A DNA stretch of 64,000 bases. It comes from Microbacterium testaceum. GTDB taxonomy: Bacteria; Actinomycetota; Actinomycetes; Actinomycetales; Microbacteriaceae. Below the pieces are notes generated by a model. It was not told the origin of the DNA. It made no database searches and saw only the letters and a list, made by a program, of their open reading frames with translations. The translations under genes and the position numbers were made by a program. The DNA is taken from NCBI RefSeq assembly GCF_029761935.1, contig NZ_CP121699.1, forward strand, positions 1,984,001-2,048,000. The letters run 5' to 3'. This document shows positions 45,514-52,969 of this stretch, piece by piece; the stretch's first letter is position 1, and the number at the start of each line of letters is the position of its first letter.

Positions 45514-46491
45514 TCACCCGAGGACGACCCGCTCCATCCGCCGGAAGCTCTGCTCCATCCCCTCGACCATCCCCGTGGCGAGCACGGCGTCGCGGGTCTC
45601 GGCATCCGGATACTCGATCAGCAGGGTGACCAGCGTCGCCCCGTCCTCTTCGTAGAGGGACAGGTCGTTGATCGTCGAGGGGTAGTCGGTGCCGGTCATG
45701 TGCTCGGTCTGCACCATGCGGCGCGGCTCGTCGAGCAGCAGGATCTCGCCGTCGAATCCGAAGGGCTCCCCCTCGGTGCCGGGTTCGGGCTCCCACGCGA
45801 TGCGGTACGCGCCGCCCTCGCGCCGGTCGACCTCGCGGTGGGTCATGCGCCATCCGTCGGGCCCGAGCATCCACTGTCGCATCAGCTCGGGGTCGACGTG
45901 GGCCCGCCAGACGAGCTCGCGCGGCCCGTCGATGAGCCGCGTGATGCGTACGTGCTGGTCGTCGAGGATCTCGAGCTGCGTGCCTTTGCCCTGCGCGAAA
46001 TCCCGTAGCCCCTGCAGCACGGCGTCGAGCTGGTTGATGGCGAGGGTCGACCCCTCGACGGCGCCCATGGCGAGCACCGTTTCGAGACCCTCGAGGGAGT
46101 CGAAGTACGTCACGTTCGTCAGCCGCGAGCCGCCCTCGGTCTCGTCGAACGCGAAGGTCATGCGCATCGCGGGCATGCCGGGGATCGCCTCGCCGTTCTC
46201 GTCGACGAACGAGTCGACGACCTCGAAGCCGCGCGGAGCGTCGATGCCGAGGAACTCCCAGCTCCCGCGTGCGATCTCGCCGCTCGCGCTGGCCATCGCG
46301 TATCGGGCGCGACCGCCGACCTCGAAGGCGAACGATGCGAACGTCGCCGGCCATCCGGGGGGACCCCAGAAGCGTTCGAGCTGCCGCGGGTCGGTGAAGA
46401 CCGTCCATAACCGTTCGGCGCCCACGGGGAAGTCGGCGACCAGGGTCATGGTGAGCGCTTCGGCGTCGCTCTCGACGGATGTGACGGACAT
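45514..46491 (-). CDS. Tandem SRPBCC (AHSA1-like) protein
   Basis: 325 residues containing two AHSA1/START-fold domains. First: VGAERLWTVFTDPRQLERFWGPPGWPAT; second: IDGPRELVWRAHVDPELMRQWMLGPDGWRMT. Such domains bind small hydrophobic ligands or act as Hsp90 activators; most bacterial stand-alone copies are uncharacterised. Downstream of an ArsR-type regulator (18 bp gap), the common ArsR-SRPBCC pairing. Confidence 0.88.
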   Translation of the reverse strand: MSVTSVESDAEALTMTLVADFPVGAERLWTVFTDPRQLERFWGPPGWPATFASFAFEVGGRARYAMASASGEIARGSWEFLGIDAPRGFEVVDSFVDENGEAIPGMPAMRMTFAFDETEGGSRLTNVTYFDSLEGLETVLAMGAVEGSTLAINQLDAVLQGLRDFAQGKGTQLEILDDQHVRITRLIDGPRELVWRAHVDPELMRQWMLGPDGWRMTHREVDRREGGAYRIAWEPEPGTEGEPFGFDGEILLLDEPRRMVQTEHMTGTDYPSTINDLSLYEEDGATLVTLLIEYPDAETRDAVLATGMVEGMEQSFRRMERVVLG

Positions 46492-46509
46492 GACGACTCC
46501 TTCGTCGGT

Positions 46510-46884
46510 TCAGTTCTCGGCGGGTTCGGAGGGCGGGAGGGATGCCGGCACCCTGGCGTCTTCGAGCAGGATCGCGTCGAGTCGGTCGATGCGTCCCCGC
46601 CAGAGGTCTTCGTACGAGCGCAGCAGGTCCTGCGCCCGGGCGAGCGCGGTGGGGTCGGCGGACACGAGTCGCACCCTCCCCTCCGCGCGTTTGGTGATGA
46701 GCCGCGCGTCGGCGAGCACGGCGATGTGCTTCGACACGGCGGCGAACGACATCGCGTAGGCCGCGGCGAGCTGCGTCACCGACTGTTCGGAGACGAGCGT
46801 GCGCCGCATGATGTCGCGACGGGTCGCGTCGGCGAGGGCGTGGAAGACCCGGTCGATGTCGGCGTCGCTCTGTTGTTCAACCAT
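46510..46884 (-). CDS. ArsR-family regulator of SRPBCC operon
   Basis: 124 residues. Winged helix: VFHALADATRRDIMRRTL, SVTQLAAAYAMSFAAVSKHIAVLADARLI, KRAEGRVRLVSA. The metal-binding ELCVCDL motif of arsenic sensors is absent, so it belongs to the subgroup paired with SRPBCC proteins. Probably autoregulated through the palindrome that covers its own start codon. Confidence 0.9.
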   Translation of the reverse strand: MVEQQSDADIDRVFHALADATRRDIMRRTLVSEQSVTQLAAAYAMSFAAVSKHIAVLADARLITKRAEGRVRLVSADPTALARAQDLLRSYEDLWRGRIDRLDAILLEDARVPASLPPSEPAEN

Positions 46885-46921
46885 TTGGTTGCACGTTAGC
46901 GCGGAGGGCCGTGACCCGCAA
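46878..46921 (-). promoter_or_regulatory. Leaderless promoter and operator of the ArsR gene
   Basis: On the minus strand: TTGCGG (complement of 46916-46921), 17 nt, TAACGT (complement of 46893-46898), 8 nt, then ATG at 46884. CAACCA-TT-TGGTTG (46878-46891) is a near palindrome that contains the start codon. A repressor bound there would block transcription initiation. Confidence 0.72.
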
Positions 46922-46926
46922 GGGCG

Positions 46927-47199
46927 TCAGCCGCGCAACGCCTGCAGCAACGCGCCGACCGGGTGGTCGCTCTCGATCGGATGACGCAGCGGCAGGTCTT
47001 CGACGCACTCGTAGCGGTTGCGTCGACCCTCCTTCTCACGCTTGAGATAGCCGGCATCGACGAGGTCGGCCAGGATGCCGTGCGCCGTGCGCTCGGTGAT
47101 GCCCACGGCATCCGCAATCTCGCGCACGCGGGCGCCCGGGTCGCGGGAGACGTAGATGAACACGTGGGCGTGATTCGTGAGGAACGTCCAGGTGGTCAT
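46927..47199 (-). CDS. Winged-helix regulator beside the dab operon
   Basis: 90 residues from ATG 47199 (MTTWTFLTNHAHVFIYV), with TATGCT 6 nt upstream. MarR/ArsR-like winged helix: DPGARVREIADAVGITERTAHGILADLVDAGYLKREKEGRRNRYEC. The opening TTWTFLTNHAHVFIYVSRDP matches a family of short actinobacterial transcription regulators. Divergent from dabB with 98 bp between starts, so it is the prime candidate for controlling the dab operon. Confidence 0.85.
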   Translation of the reverse strand: MTTWTFLTNHAHVFIYVSRDPGARVREIADAVGITERTAHGILADLVDAGYLKREKEGRRNRYECVEDLPLRHPIESDHPVGALLQALRG

Positions 47200-47205
47200 C
47201 GCCAC

Positions 47206-47290
47206 AGCATAGTGACCCGAGGTACCGGAATCCAAGTACCGGTTATTCATTACCTGCGTTTTGACACACGCAATTTGTTGCATGTAACGT
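47206..47290. promoter_or_regulatory. Divergent promoters of the winged-helix gene and the dab operon
   Basis: Minus strand: TTGGAT (complement of 47230-47235), 18 nt, TATGCT (complement of 47206-47211), 6 nt to ATG 47199. Plus strand: TTGACA (47261-47266), 18 nt, TAACGT (47285-47290), 7 nt to ATG 47298. Candidate regulator sites: direct repeats GTACCGG at 47222 and 47236, around the minus-strand -35, and GCAA-tttg-TTGC inside the plus-strand spacer. Confidence 0.75.
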
Positions 47291-47297
47291 GCCGCGC

Positions 47298-48773
47298 ATG
47301 TCGCTTCTCGCCCCGCTCACGATCGCCGCGCTGCTCGCCGCGGTCGTCGCCGCCCTCCTCCCGGATGTCGCGCGTCGGCGCACCCCGGGCTCTCTCGCCG
47401 TGTGGCCCGCCGGCGCCGCCACGGTCCTCGCCACGGTCGCTCTGGCCTCGACCCTCGCCGCCGGCGACGACGTGGCAGGTGCCGCGCTGTCGCTGCTCGT
47501 GGTCGCCCTCACCGTGGTCGTGCAGTCCTACGCCAGCCGCAACCTGCGCGGCGACCCGCGTTCGCGCAGCTTCTTCGCGTTATCGTCGCTCGCGGCCGTC
47601 GGGACGACCACCGCCATTGCGGCCGGGGACGTCGTCTTCCTCGCCGCGGGGTGGACGCTCGGCACGGTCAGCATGATCGCGCTCATCGGCACGGGCGGCG
47701 CGGGTCCGCAGACGCGCGTTGCCGTGTCGCGGAGCGCGGTGGCCCTGCTGCTCGGAGACGCGGCGCTCTGGACGGCCGTCATCATCGCGGTCGCCTCGAC
47801 CGGATCGGTGTCGCTGGCCGCTCTCGGGAGCGTCGACGCGATCTCGGCGGCGGTGGTGAGCGCGCTCGTCGCCCTCGCGGCGGTCGCCCGCGCCGGCGCC
47901 TTCCCCCTGCACGGGTGGCTCCCCGCCACCGCGGCCACGACCACTCCCGTGTCGGCCCTGCTGCACGCGGGCTTCGTGAACGCCGGCGCCCTGCTCCTCC
48001 TCCGTTACGCGGCCGTCCCCTCCGTCGTGGGCCCCTGGATCGTGGCCGCCGCCGGTGCGATCACGATGATCGTCGCGGGGCTCGCGATGCTCACGCGCCC
48101 CGACGTGAAGGGCCGCCTCGTGCAGTCCACGGCCGCGCAGATGGGCTTCCTCCTCCTGGCCTGCGGTCTCGGCGCCTTCGGCGTCGCCCTGGTCCACGCG
48201 ATCGGTCACGCGCTCTACAAGGCGAGCCTCTTCCTCGGCGCCGGCTCCGCGGTCGAGCACGCGCTGAAGGCGCGGGGCGTCGCGCACCCGGCTCGGTCGA
48301 CCACGGGAGCGATCGTGGGCGCGGTGATCATCCTCCTGACCGGGGTCGCGGCGATCGCGGCATCCGGCGCGTGGGAGCACAGCGCGGCAGTCCTCCTGCT
48401 CTTCGCCGGGGCCACCGCGGTGGTCGCCGGGGCGCGGATCGGCGCAAGCTCCCGGTCGGTCGCCGCGCGCGCGGCCCAGCTCGCGGGCCTGGCCGCCCTC
48501 ACGGCCGTCTACCTCGCGGTGGTCTTCCCCGCGGCCGAGGCCCTCGCGCCGGTCACGGCGGCAGACCCGGTCCCCGCCGTGTTCGCGGTGGCCGTCTTCG
48601 TCCTCGCCGCCGCCTCGGGCCTGCCCGCCCGCGGCTCCGGTCCCGTCGCGGATCGACTGTTCGCCTTCGCCTTCTCGTGGGGCCGACCGCCCCTCCCTCC
48701 GACCGCATCCCGCATCGACACGCCCTGGACCCCGGCACCCGCCGACGGCCCCCTCGAGTACCGGAGATTCTGA
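47298..48773 (+). CDS. dabB: DabB-type subunit of inorganic-carbon transporter (ND5-like)
   Basis: 491 residues from ATG 47298 (MSLLAPLTIAALL), fixed by the promoter 7 nt upstream. A polytopic member of the proton-conducting NuoL/MrpA family, about 13 TM helices; FPLHGWLPATAATTTPVSALLHAGFVNAGALLLLR and KGRLVQSTAAQMGFLLLACGLG are family hallmarks. It is shorter than respiratory NuoL, lacking the long C-terminal lateral helix. DabB is thought to couple cation flow to CO2 hydration by DabA (MpsA in staphylococci). TGA overlaps the dabA ATG. Confidence 0.9.
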   Translation: MSLLAPLTIAALLAAVVAALLPDVARRRTPGSLAVWPAGAATVLATVALASTLAAGDDVAGAALSLLVVALTVVVQSYASRNLRGDPRSRSFFALSSLAAVGTTTAIAAGDVVFLAAGWTLGTVSMIALIGTGGAGPQTRVAVSRSAVALLLGDAALWTAVIIAVASTGSVSLAALGSVDAISAAVVSALVALAAVARAGAFPLHGWLPATAATTTPVSALLHAGFVNAGALLLLRYAAVPSVVGPWIVAAAGAITMIVAGLAMLTRPDVKGRLVQSTAAQMGFLLLACGLGAFGVALVHAIGHALYKASLFLGAGSAVEHALKARGVAHPARSTTGAIVGAVIILLTGVAAIAASGAWEHSAAVLLLFAGATAVVAGARIGASSRSVAARAAQLAGLAALTAVYLAVVFPAAEALAPVTAADPVPAVFAVAVFVLAAASGLPARGSGPVADRLFAFAFSWGRPPLPPTASRIDTPWTPAPADGPLEYRRF

Positions 48774-51319
48774 TGACCACCCCCGCCTCCCCTCCCTCTC
48801 CCGCCGTCATCCGGGGCTGGATCGCCGCCGCCGGCCGCGCCATCTCGCCCCACTTCCCCCTCGAGACCTTCATCGCACGCAACCCCGTCGCCGGGTACGA
48901 GAACCTCGACTGGGAAGAGGCGATCGGACTGATCGCCCGGGATCACGGCATCCTGCTCTCCCTTCCGGAACAGCGCTTCCGCGACCTGTACGCACAGGGG
49001 CGGATCAGCCCCGCCGACCTGCAGGCGGCCCTGCGGTTCACCGTGCCCGAGGCGGGCGCCCCGCGCTCTCTCGACATCGGCGGCACGCGCGTCACCGTGG
49101 GCGAGATCCTCGGCCACGACCTGCTCGTCGCTCCCCCGCTGACCGCGGCCGCGCCCGAACCCACCCCCGCCGCACGGCTGTCGCCGCGGATCCACGCGCG
49201 CATCGACGACCTCACCGCACGCTGGATCGCCGCATCGCTCGGGAGCGCACCGTGGTCGCCGACGAACGACGAGAGCATCTGGGTGGCGTGGCGGCGCCTG
49301 ACCGCGCTCGACCCGACCCTGTCGCGGAAGGTGCGCAGCGGCATCCGGCATTCCTCCGACGACCCGGCCGCGGCGATCGGCGACGCGCTCGCCCGGTGGG
49401 AGCTCGACGGGCCGGCCGCGGAATCGTTCCTCCGCGCCCACGTGCTCGCGTTGCCGGGGTGGGCGGCGCTCGTCCGGCACACGGCCGCGAGCGGCGTCGA
49501 TCTGACCTCGCTCGTCGCGATCCGCGCGACGCTCGAACGGCTCCTGCTGCCCGCCGACGTCGCCCTGCCGGCAGCGTCCCCGACCGAAAAGGGCCCGGCC
49601 GATGAGGTCGCGCGGATCGGCACGGTCGCCCTCGCTCTCGGCGTCGACCCCGCCGACGCGGCGGTGCGGACCGCCCTTCGCCCCGTCCTCTCGCTGATCG
49701 ACCCGGCCGCACGCCTCGCGGTCTGGCAGGAGGCGTACGAACGGGGGATCGCGCGCGAGCTCGCCCCCGCGACCGCCCCGGTGCTCCGCGCGAGCACGGC
49801 GCCGCAGCGGCCACTCGCGCAGGCGGTGTTCTGCATCGACACGCGGTCCGAGAGCTTCCGCCGGCACCTCGAGGACGCCGGAGCCGTCGAGACCCTCGGT
49901 TTCGCGGGATTCTTCGCGGCGCCCATCTCGTTCCGGCCCGCCGACGGGTCGGCCGAGGTCGCCTCGTGCCCGGTGCTGCTCACGCCCCGCGTGGCGATCA
50001 CCGAGTCGTCCGTGGAGCGCGACGCGATCGCGCGCTGGAAGCGGCAGCACGAGACGAGTGTGGAGCGGGATGCCACCATCGATTCCCTCAAAAAGTCCGC
50101 TGTGGCCCCCTACGCCTTCGCCGAGACCGCCGGATGGGTGCTGGGAGCGGTGAGCGCCGCGCGGACGCTCGCGCCGGAGGGCTGGCGAGCGACGGTGTCG
50201 CGCATGCGGCCGAGCAAGCCGTCCACGCACGTCGATGCGAACGTCGTCTTCACGCTCGAGGAGCGCGTGCTGTACGCCGAGACCGCGCTGCGAATGATGG
50301 GCCTGGTCGAGGGATTCGCCCCGATCGTGCTGCTGTGCGGTCACGGCGCCACTGTCGCCAACAACCCCTTCGCATCGTCGCTGCAGTGCGGCGCGTGCGG
50401 CGGCCACGAGGGCGAACCGAACGCGCGGGCGGCGGCGATGATCTTCAACGACCCCGAGACGCGCGACGCCCTCGCCGGACGGGGCATCTCCATCCCCGCC
50501 GACACGCTCTTCGTCGCGGCGCGGATGGACACCGTCACCGACGAGGTCACCCTGCTCGAGCCCTGGGCCATTCCGGCGACGCACGAAACCGTCGCGCTCG
50601 AGGTGACCCGGCTGCTCGAGACCGCGCGCGCGGCGAACGCCGCCGAGCGCAGCGCGAGCCTGCCCGGGTCGGGAGGGCGGCACGGCGCCGTCCGCGACAC
50701 CGAGCGCCGGTCCGCGGACTGGGCCGAGTCGTACGCGGAGTGGGGTCTCGTCGGCAACGCCGCGTTCATCGTGGGTCCGCGCTCGATCACCGCGGGCACC
50801 GACCTCGGTCGCCGCGCCTTCCTGCACAGCTACGACGCCGCCGCCGACCCCGACGGCGCGGGTCTCGAGACGATCCTGACCGCGCCGATGATCGTGGCGC
50901 AGTGGATCAACGCGCAGTACTCGGCCTCGACCGTCGCCCCCGACCGGTTGGGCGCCGGCCCCAAGCCCCTGCACAACGTGGTCGGCACCGTCGGCGTGCT
51001 GTCGGGCTACGGCGGCGACCTGCGGCTTGGCCTGCCCTGGCAGTCCGTGGGCGTCGGCCGCGCGAGTCGGCACGAACCGATCCGGCTGCAGGTGTTCGTC
51101 GAGGCCCCGCTCGCGCGGGTGAACGACATCATCGACGCTTCCGAGGCCGTCCGCACCCTGGTCGCCAACCGGTGGATCTCCCTCCGCGTCCGCGAGCACG
51201 ACAGCGCCCGCTGGATGCGGTGGGGACGCTACGGCTGGCAGGCCGACGACCTGGACACCCCCGCCCCCACCGGCGTCCCTACCGCCACCGAAGAATCCAC
51301 CACGAAGGAGATCCGCTGA
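48773..51319 (+). CDS. dabA: DabA-type subunit of inorganic-carbon transporter (DUF2309)
   Basis: 848 residues. PF10070/UPF0753 family. The beta-carbonic-anhydrase-like zinc site is intact: Cys354 and Asp356 in VFCIDTRSESFRRHLE, His524 in LLCGHGATVANNPF and Cys539 in SLQCGACGGHEG; from memory the Halothiobacillus residues are C351, D353, H524 and C539. N-terminal FPLETFIARNPVAGYENLDWEEAI and HNVVGTVGVLSGYGGDLRLGLPWQSV near the C-terminus are also typical. Works with DabB at the membrane to trap CO2 as bicarbonate. Downstream PII-like gene overlaps by one base. Confidence 0.95.
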   Translation: MTTPASPPSPAVIRGWIAAAGRAISPHFPLETFIARNPVAGYENLDWEEAIGLIARDHGILLSLPEQRFRDLYAQGRISPADLQAALRFTVPEAGAPRSLDIGGTRVTVGEILGHDLLVAPPLTAAAPEPTPAARLSPRIHARIDDLTARWIAASLGSAPWSPTNDESIWVAWRRLTALDPTLSRKVRSGIRHSSDDPAAAIGDALARWELDGPAAESFLRAHVLALPGWAALVRHTAASGVDLTSLVAIRATLERLLLPADVALPAASPTEKGPADEVARIGTVALALGVDPADAAVRTALRPVLSLIDPAARLAVWQEAYERGIARELAPATAPVLRASTAPQRPLAQAVFCIDTRSESFRRHLEDAGAVETLGFAGFFAAPISFRPADGSAEVASCPVLLTPRVAITESSVERDAIARWKRQHETSVERDATIDSLKKSAVAPYAFAETAGWVLGAVSAARTLAPEGWRATVSRMRPSKPSTHVDANVVFTLEERVLYAETALRMMGLVEGFAPIVLLCGHGATVANNPFASSLQCGACGGHEGEPNARAAAMIFNDPETRDALAGRGISIPADTLFVAARMDTVTDEVTLLEPWAIPATHETVALEVTRLLETARAANAAERSASLPGSGGRHGAVRDTERRSADWAESYAEWGLVGNAAFIVGPRSITAGTDLGRRAFLHSYDAAADPDGAGLETILTAPMIVAQWINAQYSASTVAPDRLGAGPKPLHNVVGTVGVLSGYGGDLRLGLPWQSVGVGRASRHEPIRLQVFVEAPLARVNDIIDASEAVRTLVANRWISLRVREHDSARWMRWGRYGWQADDLDTPAPTGVPTATEESTTKEIR

Positions 51320-51642
51320 TGAGCCTGTCCGAACTGACCCCGATGACCAAGATCGAGGTGGTCGTCGCGAGCGACGACGTCGCCGAGGTGTCCGCCCTCA
51401 TGCAATCGCTCGGCGCGCGCGGGTACACCGCGATCACCGGCGTGGCCGGGGTGGGTCACCACGGCCCCCGTGGCGGCCGCCTGCTCTTCAACGACCACGA
51501 CACCCTGACTCTCCTCGTCACGGTCGTGGCGCCCGAGAAGGCCGATGCGATCATCGCCGGCATCCGTCCGGTCCTCGACCACGCCTCGGGCGTGATGTTC
51601 GTCTCGCCGACCTCGGTCAGCCGCGCGGACTACTTCGCCTGA
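51319..51642 (+). CDS. PII-like signalling protein of the dab operon
   Basis: 107 residues. PII/CutA-type ferredoxin-like fold: MTKIEVVVASDDVAEVSALMQSLGARGYTAI, then a short T-loop-like GHHGPRGGRLLFNDHDTL and LVTVVAPEKADAIIAGIRPVL. The canonical GlnB T-loop uridylylation Tyr51 is absent. By analogy with SbtB or CPII, which sit beside bicarbonate transporters, it may gate DabAB in response to a nucleotide. Start and stop both overlap neighbours by one base (TGATG). Confidence 0.85.
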   Translation: MSLSELTPMTKIEVVVASDDVAEVSALMQSLGARGYTAITGVAGVGHHGPRGGRLLFNDHDTLTLLVTVVAPEKADAIIAGIRPVLDHASGVMFVSPTSVSRADYFA

Positions 51643-52475
51643 TGCGCGCCGCGACCAGTCACCGGGGGGCGCCGTACGCCGGCGAGACGATCGCCGTCGG
51701 CACCCTGCACGGCAAGGAGTCCGCGTTCGCCCCGGCCTTCGCCCGATGGCTCGACGCGGGCGTCGCGCCGACGGCGCAGCTCGACACAGACTCCCTCGGC
51801 ACGTTCACCCGAGACGTGCCGAGGGCGGGCACCGCCGAGCACGCGGCCACGGCCAAGGCCCGGGGGGCGGCGCTCGAGTTGGGGACGGCCACCGGTCTGG
51901 CCACCGAAGCGTCGTACGCCCCGGCGCTGGGCGGCTTCGGACCCATGGTGCACGAGGAGCTCGCCGTCTTCATCGACCTCGAGCGCGGCATCCGCGTGCG
52001 TCACGGCATCCGCCGGTACACGCACGTCGCCCCGGCCCGCACCGTGCGCACGTCGGCAGAAGCGCGGCGCTACCTCGCCCGCGCCGGATTTCCGCACCAC
52101 GGCGTCGTCGCCCGCACCGCCGACGGGTTGCAGAAGGGCATCCAGGATGCCGCGGTCATCGACGCCCTGCTGCGCCGCGGCCCCGTCGAGCTCGAGCCCG
52201 ACCTCCGCGCGCACATGAACCCCACCCGGCGGCGGGTCCTGCGCCGCCTGTCGTGGCTGCTCGCCGCCCGACTCACCCAGCTGTGCCCGGGGTGCGGATG
52301 TCCGGGTTTCGGGGCGGTGGGCGTGGTGCGGGGTCTCCCGTGCGCAGCGTGCGGCAACGCGACCTCGCAGGTGCGTCTCGACGTCGACGGCTGCCCCGCC
52401 TGCGACGAGCAGCGCGAGCGCCCGCGGCCCGAGCGGCAGGCCGACCCGGCGACGTGTGACGCCTGCAACCCGTAG
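51642..52475 (+). CDS. DUF6671-like protein with C-terminal zinc ribbons
   Basis: 277 residues. N-terminal ~205 residues resemble what I recall as DUF6671: GETIAVGTLHGKESAFAPAF, TDSLGTFTRDVPRAGT, KARGAALELGTATGLATEASYAP and MVHEELAVFIDLERGIRVRHG. The C-terminal 70 residues carry four CxxC knuckles: CPGCGCPG, CAACG, CPACD and CDAC, so one or two zinc ribbons. Function unknown. It overlaps the PII-like gene by one base, making it a full member of the dab operon. TGTHGKE- and TEASYAP-like segments suggest a catalytic or ligand-binding pocket; that is inference. The following 230 bp (52476-52705) show no gene. Confidence 0.75.
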   Translation: MRAATSHRGAPYAGETIAVGTLHGKESAFAPAFARWLDAGVAPTAQLDTDSLGTFTRDVPRAGTAEHAATAKARGAALELGTATGLATEASYAPALGGFGPMVHEELAVFIDLERGIRVRHGIRRYTHVAPARTVRTSAEARRYLARAGFPHHGVVARTADGLQKGIQDAAVIDALLRRGPVELEPDLRAHMNPTRRRVLRRLSWLLAARLTQLCPGCGCPGFGAVGVVRGLPCAACGNATSQVRLDVDGCPACDEQRERPRPERQADPATCDACNP

Positions 52476-52705
52476 CGGATGTCGCGAGGCCGGCGGGAGG
52501 GGAAAGGGACGCAGCGCGGTTGTCTCGCCGTCTCAGCCGACCGTGACGCGTCGGCCTCAGCCTGGACGCGACACGATCCGCCTGAACTTTTTCGCCGCGA
52601 CCGAACGGGTGATTTTCACGCACCACCGGGGTGAAAAAACCCCAAGAGGCCGCCCTGTCAAGGCAAGCTGGCGGCTGTTCACGGACCGTCACCGAGGGGG
52701 TAGTC

Positions 52706-52969
52706 ATGTCGACCTTCTGCGTGGAACCCGAAGCGCTGCGCGTCGCAGCGGCACGGCTGAGGGGCGCTCGGCAGTCTGAATCGGAGCCACGGTGGCCGAC
52801 GCTGCCGAACTTCGGGGAGCAGGTCCTCCAGGCTGCCGCCCGAGCCTTCGCTCAGAATGTCGCCGCGGTGTGGTCAGCCCGAGCGGAAGAGTTCGACGAA
52901 CTTGTGGAGCGATTGCGGGCGTCTGCCGACGCCTACGAACAAGCGGATCTCGACGGGGTTCCTCGATGA
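52706..52969 (+). CDS. WXG100-like type VII secretion partner
   Basis: 87 residues from ATG 52706, with GAGGGGG 7-8 nt upstream. Predicted all-helical: VEPEALRVAAARLRGARQSE and an AFAQNVAAVWSARAEEFDELVERLRASADAYEQAD helix; the helix-turn-helix hairpin with VAAVWSAR in place of WxG is like ESX secretion-associated proteins. Overlaps the effector start by 4 bp (ATGA), the usual partner arrangement. Confidence 0.7.
   Translation: MSTFCVEPEALRVAAARLRGARQSESEPRWPTLPNFGEQVLQAAARAFAQNVAAVWSARAEEFDELVERLRASADAYEQADLDGVPR

Follow-up and report, generated by a model that had tools for sequence, protein, structure and literature searches.

The 64,000-nucleotide stretch of Microbacterium testaceum DNA analysed here (the window, within which all positions are given) comes from a genome of a single 3.38 Mb contig and contains a four-gene operon, dabB-dabA-PII-DUF6671, with a small winged-helix (wHTH) gene diverging from it (Table 1). 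An original prediction had described the operon as an inorganic-carbon (Ci) uptake system with two extra subunits. The layout on which that prediction was built is confirmed; the four genes are joined by TGATG overlaps starting at 48771, 51317 and 51640, the junctions first given (48773, 51319 and 51642) being the ATG positions of these overlaps, and the divergent winged-helix gene is present with a family score above cut-off. Of the consensus-like promoter also proposed, the hexamer TTGACA is found at 47261, but a sigma-70 scan of 46880-52800 returned no promoter-like site.

Table 1. Features of the dab locus and its upstream region in the window.
Feature	Position	Strand	Evidence
Divergent small winged-helix regulator, 90 aa	46927..47199	-	Distinct subfamily (WTFLTNHxHVL...GITERA...GRRNxY...LRHP); MarR_2 31.0 bits, cut-off 27
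Inverted repeat ATTAC-N16-GCAAT, operator-like, weak lead	47249..47274	.	Between the divergent genes
dabB, NuoL/Mrp-type membrane subunit of DAB inorganic-carbon complex	47298..48773	+	PF00361 1.6e-25
dabA, beta-carbonic-anhydrase-like zinc subunit	48773..51319	+	PF10070 full length 2.4e-213; PDB 9rd0 E 9.3e-105
PII-like protein, CPII type	51319..51642	+	PF00543 8.6e-18; best profile match 5d4n/5d4l
DUF6671, predicted HAM1/YjjX-like domain (residues 14-214) then cysteine-rich tail	51642..52475	+	PF20376 1.3e-25
Cys-rich tail of DUF6671, putative zinc ribbons	52284..52466	+	C215, C218, C234, C237, C251, C254, C272, C275

Proteins of the operon

The window DabA covers positions 1-747 of 747 in the PF10070 profile (711 bits). 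Its residues C354, D356, H524 and C539, previously put forward as an intact zinc site, are all present together with R358, and the five match C351, D353, R355, H524 and C539, given as the zinc site of DAB2 in the available text of PMC13144422. A full-length DabA with Cys/His/Cys zinc ligands and an Asp-Arg dyad, next to a NuoL-like DabB, supports at the level of sequence the assignment of this locus to Ci uptake operons of the DAB/MpsAB kind. For DabAB, structures and mutants have led to the proposal that CO2 hydration is coupled to membrane potential, and MpsAB has been argued to be a Na+/bicarbonate symporter (both in the same text of PMC13144422). DAB is not a substitute for an absent carbonic anhydrase in this family, since beta-carbonic anhydrase is encoded in all nine Microbacteriaceae genomes with dabA, and in 51 of the 52 tested (these nine plus 43 others chosen by handle number). 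Elsewhere, a Leptospirillum DUF2309 (DabA) gene has been read as encoding a thiol/disulfide protein involved in chromate tolerance (in part of PMC9080137); its CXXC may belong to the DabA zinc-site region and can be compared with C539 and C542 of the window protein.

In sequence the PII-like protein resembles CPII more closely than it does GlnB/GlnK or SbtB. A 37-row profile matched 5d4n/5d4l with E 1.2e-25 over 105 aligned residues; the best other PII chain reached 7.3e-06, and SbtB (6mm2) 0.0057. We take 5d4l and 5d4n to be the CPII of Wheatley 2016, a carboxysome-associated PII-like protein. Regulation of CPII by bicarbonate is the subject of that paper's title, as cited in part of PMC6458275. 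One relative (G187) has a carbonic-anhydrase gene 3' of CPII, in the place that DUF6671 holds in the window.

Fold comparison, which barely probed the Cys-rich tail, predicts a HAM1/YjjX (nucleotide pyrophosphatase) fold for residues 14-214 of DUF6671. T21, G24-K25 and K72-A73-R74 align with T8, G12-K13 and K53-A54-R55 of RdgB, corresponding to its N-terminal T..GK and its KAR motif. By eye, the invariant E89 falls where the catalytic acid of ADDSG would be expected, ADDSG being what we take to be the HAM1 motif, also seen in RdgB; the profile alignment left E89 unaligned. The DUF6671 profile scored a probability of 0.4 against E. coli YjjX, from too shallow an alignment, and a sequence-profile search of the PDB returned no relative, its best match having an E of 0.094 and all being to ribbons. 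Seven of the eight tail cysteines are invariant across 77 rows and C254 is conserved at 99%. In a Desulforudis metagenome-assembled genome one open frame of 695 aa (L124:5756-7840) encodes complete PurK domains followed by DUF6671; this single metagenome case is the only one we count as a fusion because the four other long frames (L114, L117, L082 and L078) have no recognised N-terminal domain.

Genomic context of DUF6671

In Microbacteriaceae dabA and DUF6671 each occur in nine of 150 genomes, and they are adjacent in seven of the nine dabA genomes. All nine dab operons with both flanks available have the same order of divergent wHTH gene, dabB, dabA and PII, a recurrence that is more than chance; a tenth dabA copy (G066:C69), for which upstream sequence was not fetched, ends at a contig end and is outside these counts. 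DUF6671 follows in seven of the nine with a visible 3' end and is missing from G074 and G084. The M. testaceum locus L052 carries the operon of the window as well. Across wider samples DUF6671 was found in 11/229 genomes of Gammaproteobacteria, 11/240 of Alphaproteobacteria, 22/98 of Cyanobacteria and 7/346 of Actinomycetota. The Actinomycetota sample has dabA in 21 genomes and one genome, G229, with both genes apart. In the search for PF10070 next to DUF6671 that was suggested with the original prediction, the link recurs in other phyla; only four of these 21 dabA genomes have it.

To estimate rates we used an unselected sample of DUF6671 matches from evenly drawn genomes, taking up to 20 kb around each of 45 loci (24 non-cyanobacterial and 21 cyanobacterial); the same genomes supplied 29 control regions (15 and 14 respectively). 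The genome of the window, three other centre genomes, chosen for having the gene, and three broken or fragmentary matches (G702, G674 and G955) were left out of the sample, as were family-sample loci L181-L183 from the counts. Taxa of the sampled genomes were inferred, for the family and phylum of the window from its nearest named proteins, which are those of Microbacterium, and for the other groups from named loci (Pseudomonas L098, Bradyrhizobium L082, Microcystis L083). Where a locus had no annotation the longest frame was taken as the gene, and contig ends truncate several regions. A second, selected set comprised the 80 relatives most similar to the window DUF6671, out of at least 583, and was not used for rates.

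DAB or SbtA lies within 10 kb of DUF6671 in 14 of the 24 non-cyanobacterial loci against none of 15 matched controls (p 1.4e-4, Fisher values being only indicative because the loci share descent). Over all 45 loci this comprises dabA in 12 and sbtA in two, every one non-cyanobacterial, against 0/29 controls. Other companions of the 24 are Sua5 (five), ilvD (three), icd (two) and pyrC (two), none of them seen in controls, and three loci have only icd or sua5. Among 94 immediate neighbours of 48 DUF6671 loci DabA is the commonest Pfam family (seven), followed by UPF0093 (five) and by Iso_dh, Sua5 and some sensor-kinase families with three each. The order and strand of dabA and DUF6671 differ between loci. 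In the controls, NuoL/Mrp-like frames occur in two of 29 and a RuBisCO motif in one, and dabA, sbtA, carbonic anhydrase, icd, purE and purK are absent from all 49 control regions examined for them.

Cyanobacterial loci include two with icd, and an NrtC/CmpC-type ABC gene set adjoins DUF6671 in L164 and lies farther off in another. DUF6671 is found directly 3' of hemJ (UPF0093) in L158, L163 and other cyanobacterial loci, with no scored Ci-uptake genes near. In all four loci L150-L153 the match lacks all or part of the Cys tail, and all four belong to the non-cyanobacterial loci without scored genes. RaiA occurs in 3/80 selected loci and a CBS gene in 1/40; universal stress protein did not recur among the loci checked.

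Plasmids provide an independent sample, annotated by others. At the sensitivity used, 12 of 72,556 PLSDB records contain DUF6671, and ten of these have DAB or SbtA within 8 kb: H3, H6, H8, H9, H10, H11 and H12 carry DAB (DUF2309 and a NuoL-like gene), and H1, H4 and H7 carry SbtA. Of the remaining two, H2 has pyrC and TerC, and H5 has ilvD, pyrC and an acyl-CoA carboxylase subunit. Four of the plasmids were typed as conjugative, four as mobilizable and four as neither. A cysD-annotated gene (ATP sulfurylase small subunit) lies between dabA and DUF6671 on two Mesorhizobium plasmids (L355:7057-7953, L358:7072-7977); cysD homologues occur near DUF6671 in 6/80 selected and 1/24 unselected loci and in 0/49 controls.

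PII and DUF6671 are both recurrent operon members, PII in nine and DUF6671 in seven of nine family operons, and the link of dabA with DUF6671 extends to other phyla; DUF6671 as a fixed member does not hold. That both are extra subunits sensing or gating DabAB itself would accord with the four overlapping genes of the window, with PII in every family operon whose 3' end is visible, and with dabA and DUF6671 lying on the same strand within 150 bases (overlaps included) in seven of 12 unselected dabA-linked loci. As an account of the pair it seems to us unlikely, as DUF6671 stands beside SbtA in L141, L144 and the three plasmids above, stands beside icd or sua5 without a transporter in L140, L154 and L178, and is missing from two dab operons with visible 3' ends. 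These SbtA-linked and transporter-free loci, with the DUF6671-free dab operons, rule it out as a fixed DAB subunit; it occurs near Ci uptake of two unrelated kinds and, in 21 cyanobacterial loci, near neither, and so is no fixed part of Dab. For PII alone the extra-subunit proposal stands.

The Sua5 neighbours, including sua5 beside DUF6671 on a Nocardia plasmid, raise another alternative, in which DUF6671 is a translation or RNA factor whose Cys ribbons bind RNA and which serves the bicarbonate-using Sua5 (t6A) step. The tail bears a weak resemblance to ribbons of Rpb12 (E 0.094), eL37 (0.44) and zinc-ribbon RNA-binding proteins (3.4 and 4.2), values at chance level, and Sua5 is a minority neighbour; we regard this alternative as quite improbable.

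With fragments and four repeats excluded, a 53-row DabA tree gives at least eight gains or losses of the DUF6671 link; 42 of its rows are DUF6671-linked, most of them picked through DUF6671, and it includes ten of the 21 dabA genomes of the Actinomycetota sample plus G000. The figure of eight may be inflated by one, as L010 was labelled as lacking DUF6671 though its contig ends there. Shuffled labels required 10.1 changes on average, and 22 of 500 shuffles as few as eight. The changes are spread over both halves of the tree; therefore the link between dabA and DUF6671 has been made or broken repeatedly. Such repeated change, and the recurrence of the same small gene set in differing order and strand, also bear on whether accessory genes have simply collected on mobile elements without functional linkage. 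Recombinases and IS elements do flank several plasmid islands; given those two patterns and the empty controls, we consider hitch-hiking very improbable indeed.

The winged-helix subfamily and the intergenic region

The winged-helix protein, treated as accessory in the original prediction, may be the most informative part of the locus. Its AF2 model (pLDDT 92.5) has a winged-helix fold, with Foldseek matches to AspA, MarR and ArsR proteins, and IclR and TrmB models score above their cut-offs besides MarR_2, so that it is MarR-like by fold and family score. Its relatives form a tight subfamily with 15 invariant columns in 33 rows. In Microbacteriaceae the gene diverges from dabB in all nine dab loci with both flanks, including the two that lack DUF6671; in the unselected sample five of the six actinobacterial DUF6671 loci have it, and it also lies beside icd-DUF6671 pairs without DAB.

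The subfamily occupies 56 places in 50 of the 346 Actinomycetota genomes. Forty-eight were examined (eight were not fetched), of which eight adjoin dabA or DUF6671. The other 40 include sbtA in five, carbonic anhydrase in two, SulP in one, icd in two and purE with purK in two; scored genes are found in ten of these 40 against 0/20 controls from the same genome sample (p 0.023). In one cluster (L297) the wHTH gene is accompanied by monomeric isocitrate dehydrogenase (IDH), ilvD, purE, purK and sbtA, and two IDH families are thus linked to the subfamily. One relative is on a viral contig. In many proteobacterial islands an NhaR-type LysR gene takes the place of the wHTH gene, as the COGNAT clade A section of PMC5700660 reports for dab operons; such LysR genes are near DUF6671 in 11/80 selected and 3/24 unselected loci and in 0/49 controls.

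Some of these neighbours would equally suit an island that answers alkaline pH, Na+ or metal stress, with Ci uptake only one arm. TerC/Alx genes lie in or beside four of the 12 plasmid islands (L348, L349, L351 and L352), NuoL/Mrp-like frames occur in five of the 40 wHTH places, an Mrp-type antiporter adjoins one wHTH gene, Na/H exchangers make up two of 136 wHTH neighbours, and the NhaR-like genes point the same way. TerC, however, is in only one of 24 unselected loci (p 0.33) and was rejected as a regular island member, NuoL/Mrp-like frames appear in controls too, and SbtA, DAB, CPII, carbonic anhydrase and PurEK all indicate bicarbonate; we judge an ion-stress island to be improbable. The antiporter gene is in L305, and the wHTH neighbours in L311, L312 and L320 are NuoL/Mrp-like frames.

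A motif resembling AATAC-N16-GTATT, picked by eye from the same 34 upstream regions in which it was later scored, has a mean best score of 7.0 of 10 there against 6.09 (sd 0.11) in shuffled sequence. The window site scores only 7, and spacings of 7 and 14 are raised too.

Outside the operon, positions 45514-46884 encode an ArsR-like regulator and, by eye, an SRPBCC/AHSA1-like protein in genes that overlap or adjoin, and a short gene at 52707-52969, 3' of the operon, resembles the WXG100/ESX type by eye.

Discussion

DUF6671 and the winged helix recur, on plasmids and across distantly related bacteria, beside genes that serve Ci uptake or are linked to bicarbonate, which points to a shared low-CO2 response. 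On balance we lean towards reading the M. testaceum locus as a variant of a widespread module, at times carried on plasmids, that supplies bicarbonate when CO2 is scarce. Within the cell DabAB would convert CO2 to bicarbonate by hydration, powered by an ion gradient, as has been proposed for its homologues. As for the other members, context and fold make it most likely that bicarbonate supply is under the control of the winged helix, that CPII acts as a gate on the transporter and that DUF6671 acts on a nucleotide. CPII would sense bicarbonate and an adenine nucleotide and gate the transporter by analogy with SbtB and SbtA; the winged-helix protein would regulate Ci-supply genes locally, probably through a repression that low CO2 or bicarbonate lifts, activation being the alternative. 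DUF6671 may be a soluble protein of predicted HAM1 fold with Cys ribbons, binding or hydrolysing a nucleotide in the low-CO2 response and serving whichever Ci transporter is present rather than forming a structural part of DAB. We infer the functions of all three from gene context and fold.

Extra copies of bicarbonate-using or linked enzymes (Sua5, PurE/K, PyrC, IlvD and IDH) would travel with the module or its regulator, and Sua5, PyrC, IlvD and IDH as companions suggest a mobile low-CO2 island. PurK uses bicarbonate. According to part of PMC5951830, YRDC, a Sua5 relative, makes the t6A modification from threonine, ATP and CO2/bicarbonate, and this modification is described as CO2-sensitive.

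Several observations weigh against a bicarbonate module. No scored gene accompanies DUF6671 in seven of the 24 non-cyanobacterial loci or the winged-helix gene in 30 of the 40 further places, and not one of the 45 unselected DUF6671 loci has PurE/PurK, SulP or carbonic anhydrase. The 21 cyanobacterial loci include neither dabA nor sbtA; their neighbours include HemJ (five, the commonest scanned) and SelO (two). The presence of beta-carbonic anhydrase in 51 of 52 family genomes leaves DAB without an evident purpose. When the HAM1 profile match is forced over the whole DUF6671 domain, its probability drops to 16. An alkaline or ion-stress island would be just as good a fit for the TerC, Mrp and NhaR-like genes, and IlvD, PyrC and IDH share no direct requirement for bicarbonate; because these three fit bicarbonate less simply, the ion-stress alternative keeps its place in the argument.

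A bolder and more tentative proposal, possible but well short of an even chance in our estimation, would make DUF6671 and the WTFLTNH winged helix the undiscovered core of a transporter-independent, partly mobile low-CO2 response. The winged helix would be a CO2- or bicarbonate-responsive controller of a Ci transporter, carbonic anhydrase, IDH or bicarbonate-using enzymes, and DUF6671 a HAM1-fold enzyme making or clearing the nucleotide read by a CPII/SbtB-type PII.

To the question of how heterotrophic bacteria perceive a lack of CO2 and respond to it, this locus contributes two concrete candidate genes. Gene context connects DUF6671 with DAB and SbtA, both on plasmids and in several phyla; the winged-helix subfamily is tied to DAB and SbtA and, in fewer places, to carbonic anhydrase, SulP, IDH and PurEK. 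The companion enzymes may mark the carbon-limited steps of the cell. As eight of the 12 plasmids with DUF6671 are typed conjugative or mobilizable, low-CO2 fitness may be transferable. A full-text literature search, with most subscription papers outside its reach, found no paper with DUF6671, for which a predicted fold is now available, and none combining DabA, a winged helix and inorganic carbon; for DabA, DabB and PII together it returned two reviews. What looks new is the tie of DUF6671 to Ci uptake, its predicted fold and the winged-helix subfamily; as far as we found, module members other than the known Ci-uptake complex are undescribed.

Comparison with known systems

The window operon shares with DAB2 of Halothiobacillus neapolitanus (DabA2-DabB2, PDB 9rd0) and MpsAB of Staphylococcus the DabA/DabB pair, a full-length PF10070 protein, the zinc ligands and the Asp-Arg dyad, and adds to them CPII, DUF6671 and a dedicated winged-helix gene; the available main text of the DAB2 paper mentions PII zero times (PMC13144422). 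The original prediction held PII-like and DUF6671 proteins in a Dab operon to be uncharacterised, which can be kept for DUF6671 but not for PII, already placed in 2017 at the 3' end of nuoL-ybcC (dabB-dabA) operons (PII as COG0347, COGNAT clade B, in part of PMC5700660). The order dabB-dabA-PII is common to that clade and the window; the clade B section mentions neither DUF6671 nor a winged-helix gene, and the divergent LysR gene is reported for clade A. CPII itself (5d4l, 5d4n) is the best profile match of the window PII, which differs in sitting in a dab operon. In SbtA-SbtB, described in part of PMC8438413, a PII-like partner likewise controls a Ci transporter; SbtB, however, is only distantly related to the window PII and the transporter is unrelated to DAB. 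With the ITP/XTP pyrophosphatases HAM1/RdgB and YjjX, DUF6671 shares its predicted fold, the N-terminal T..GK and the KAR motif, to which it adds a conserved DxRxHxNPTR stretch and the eight-Cys tail.

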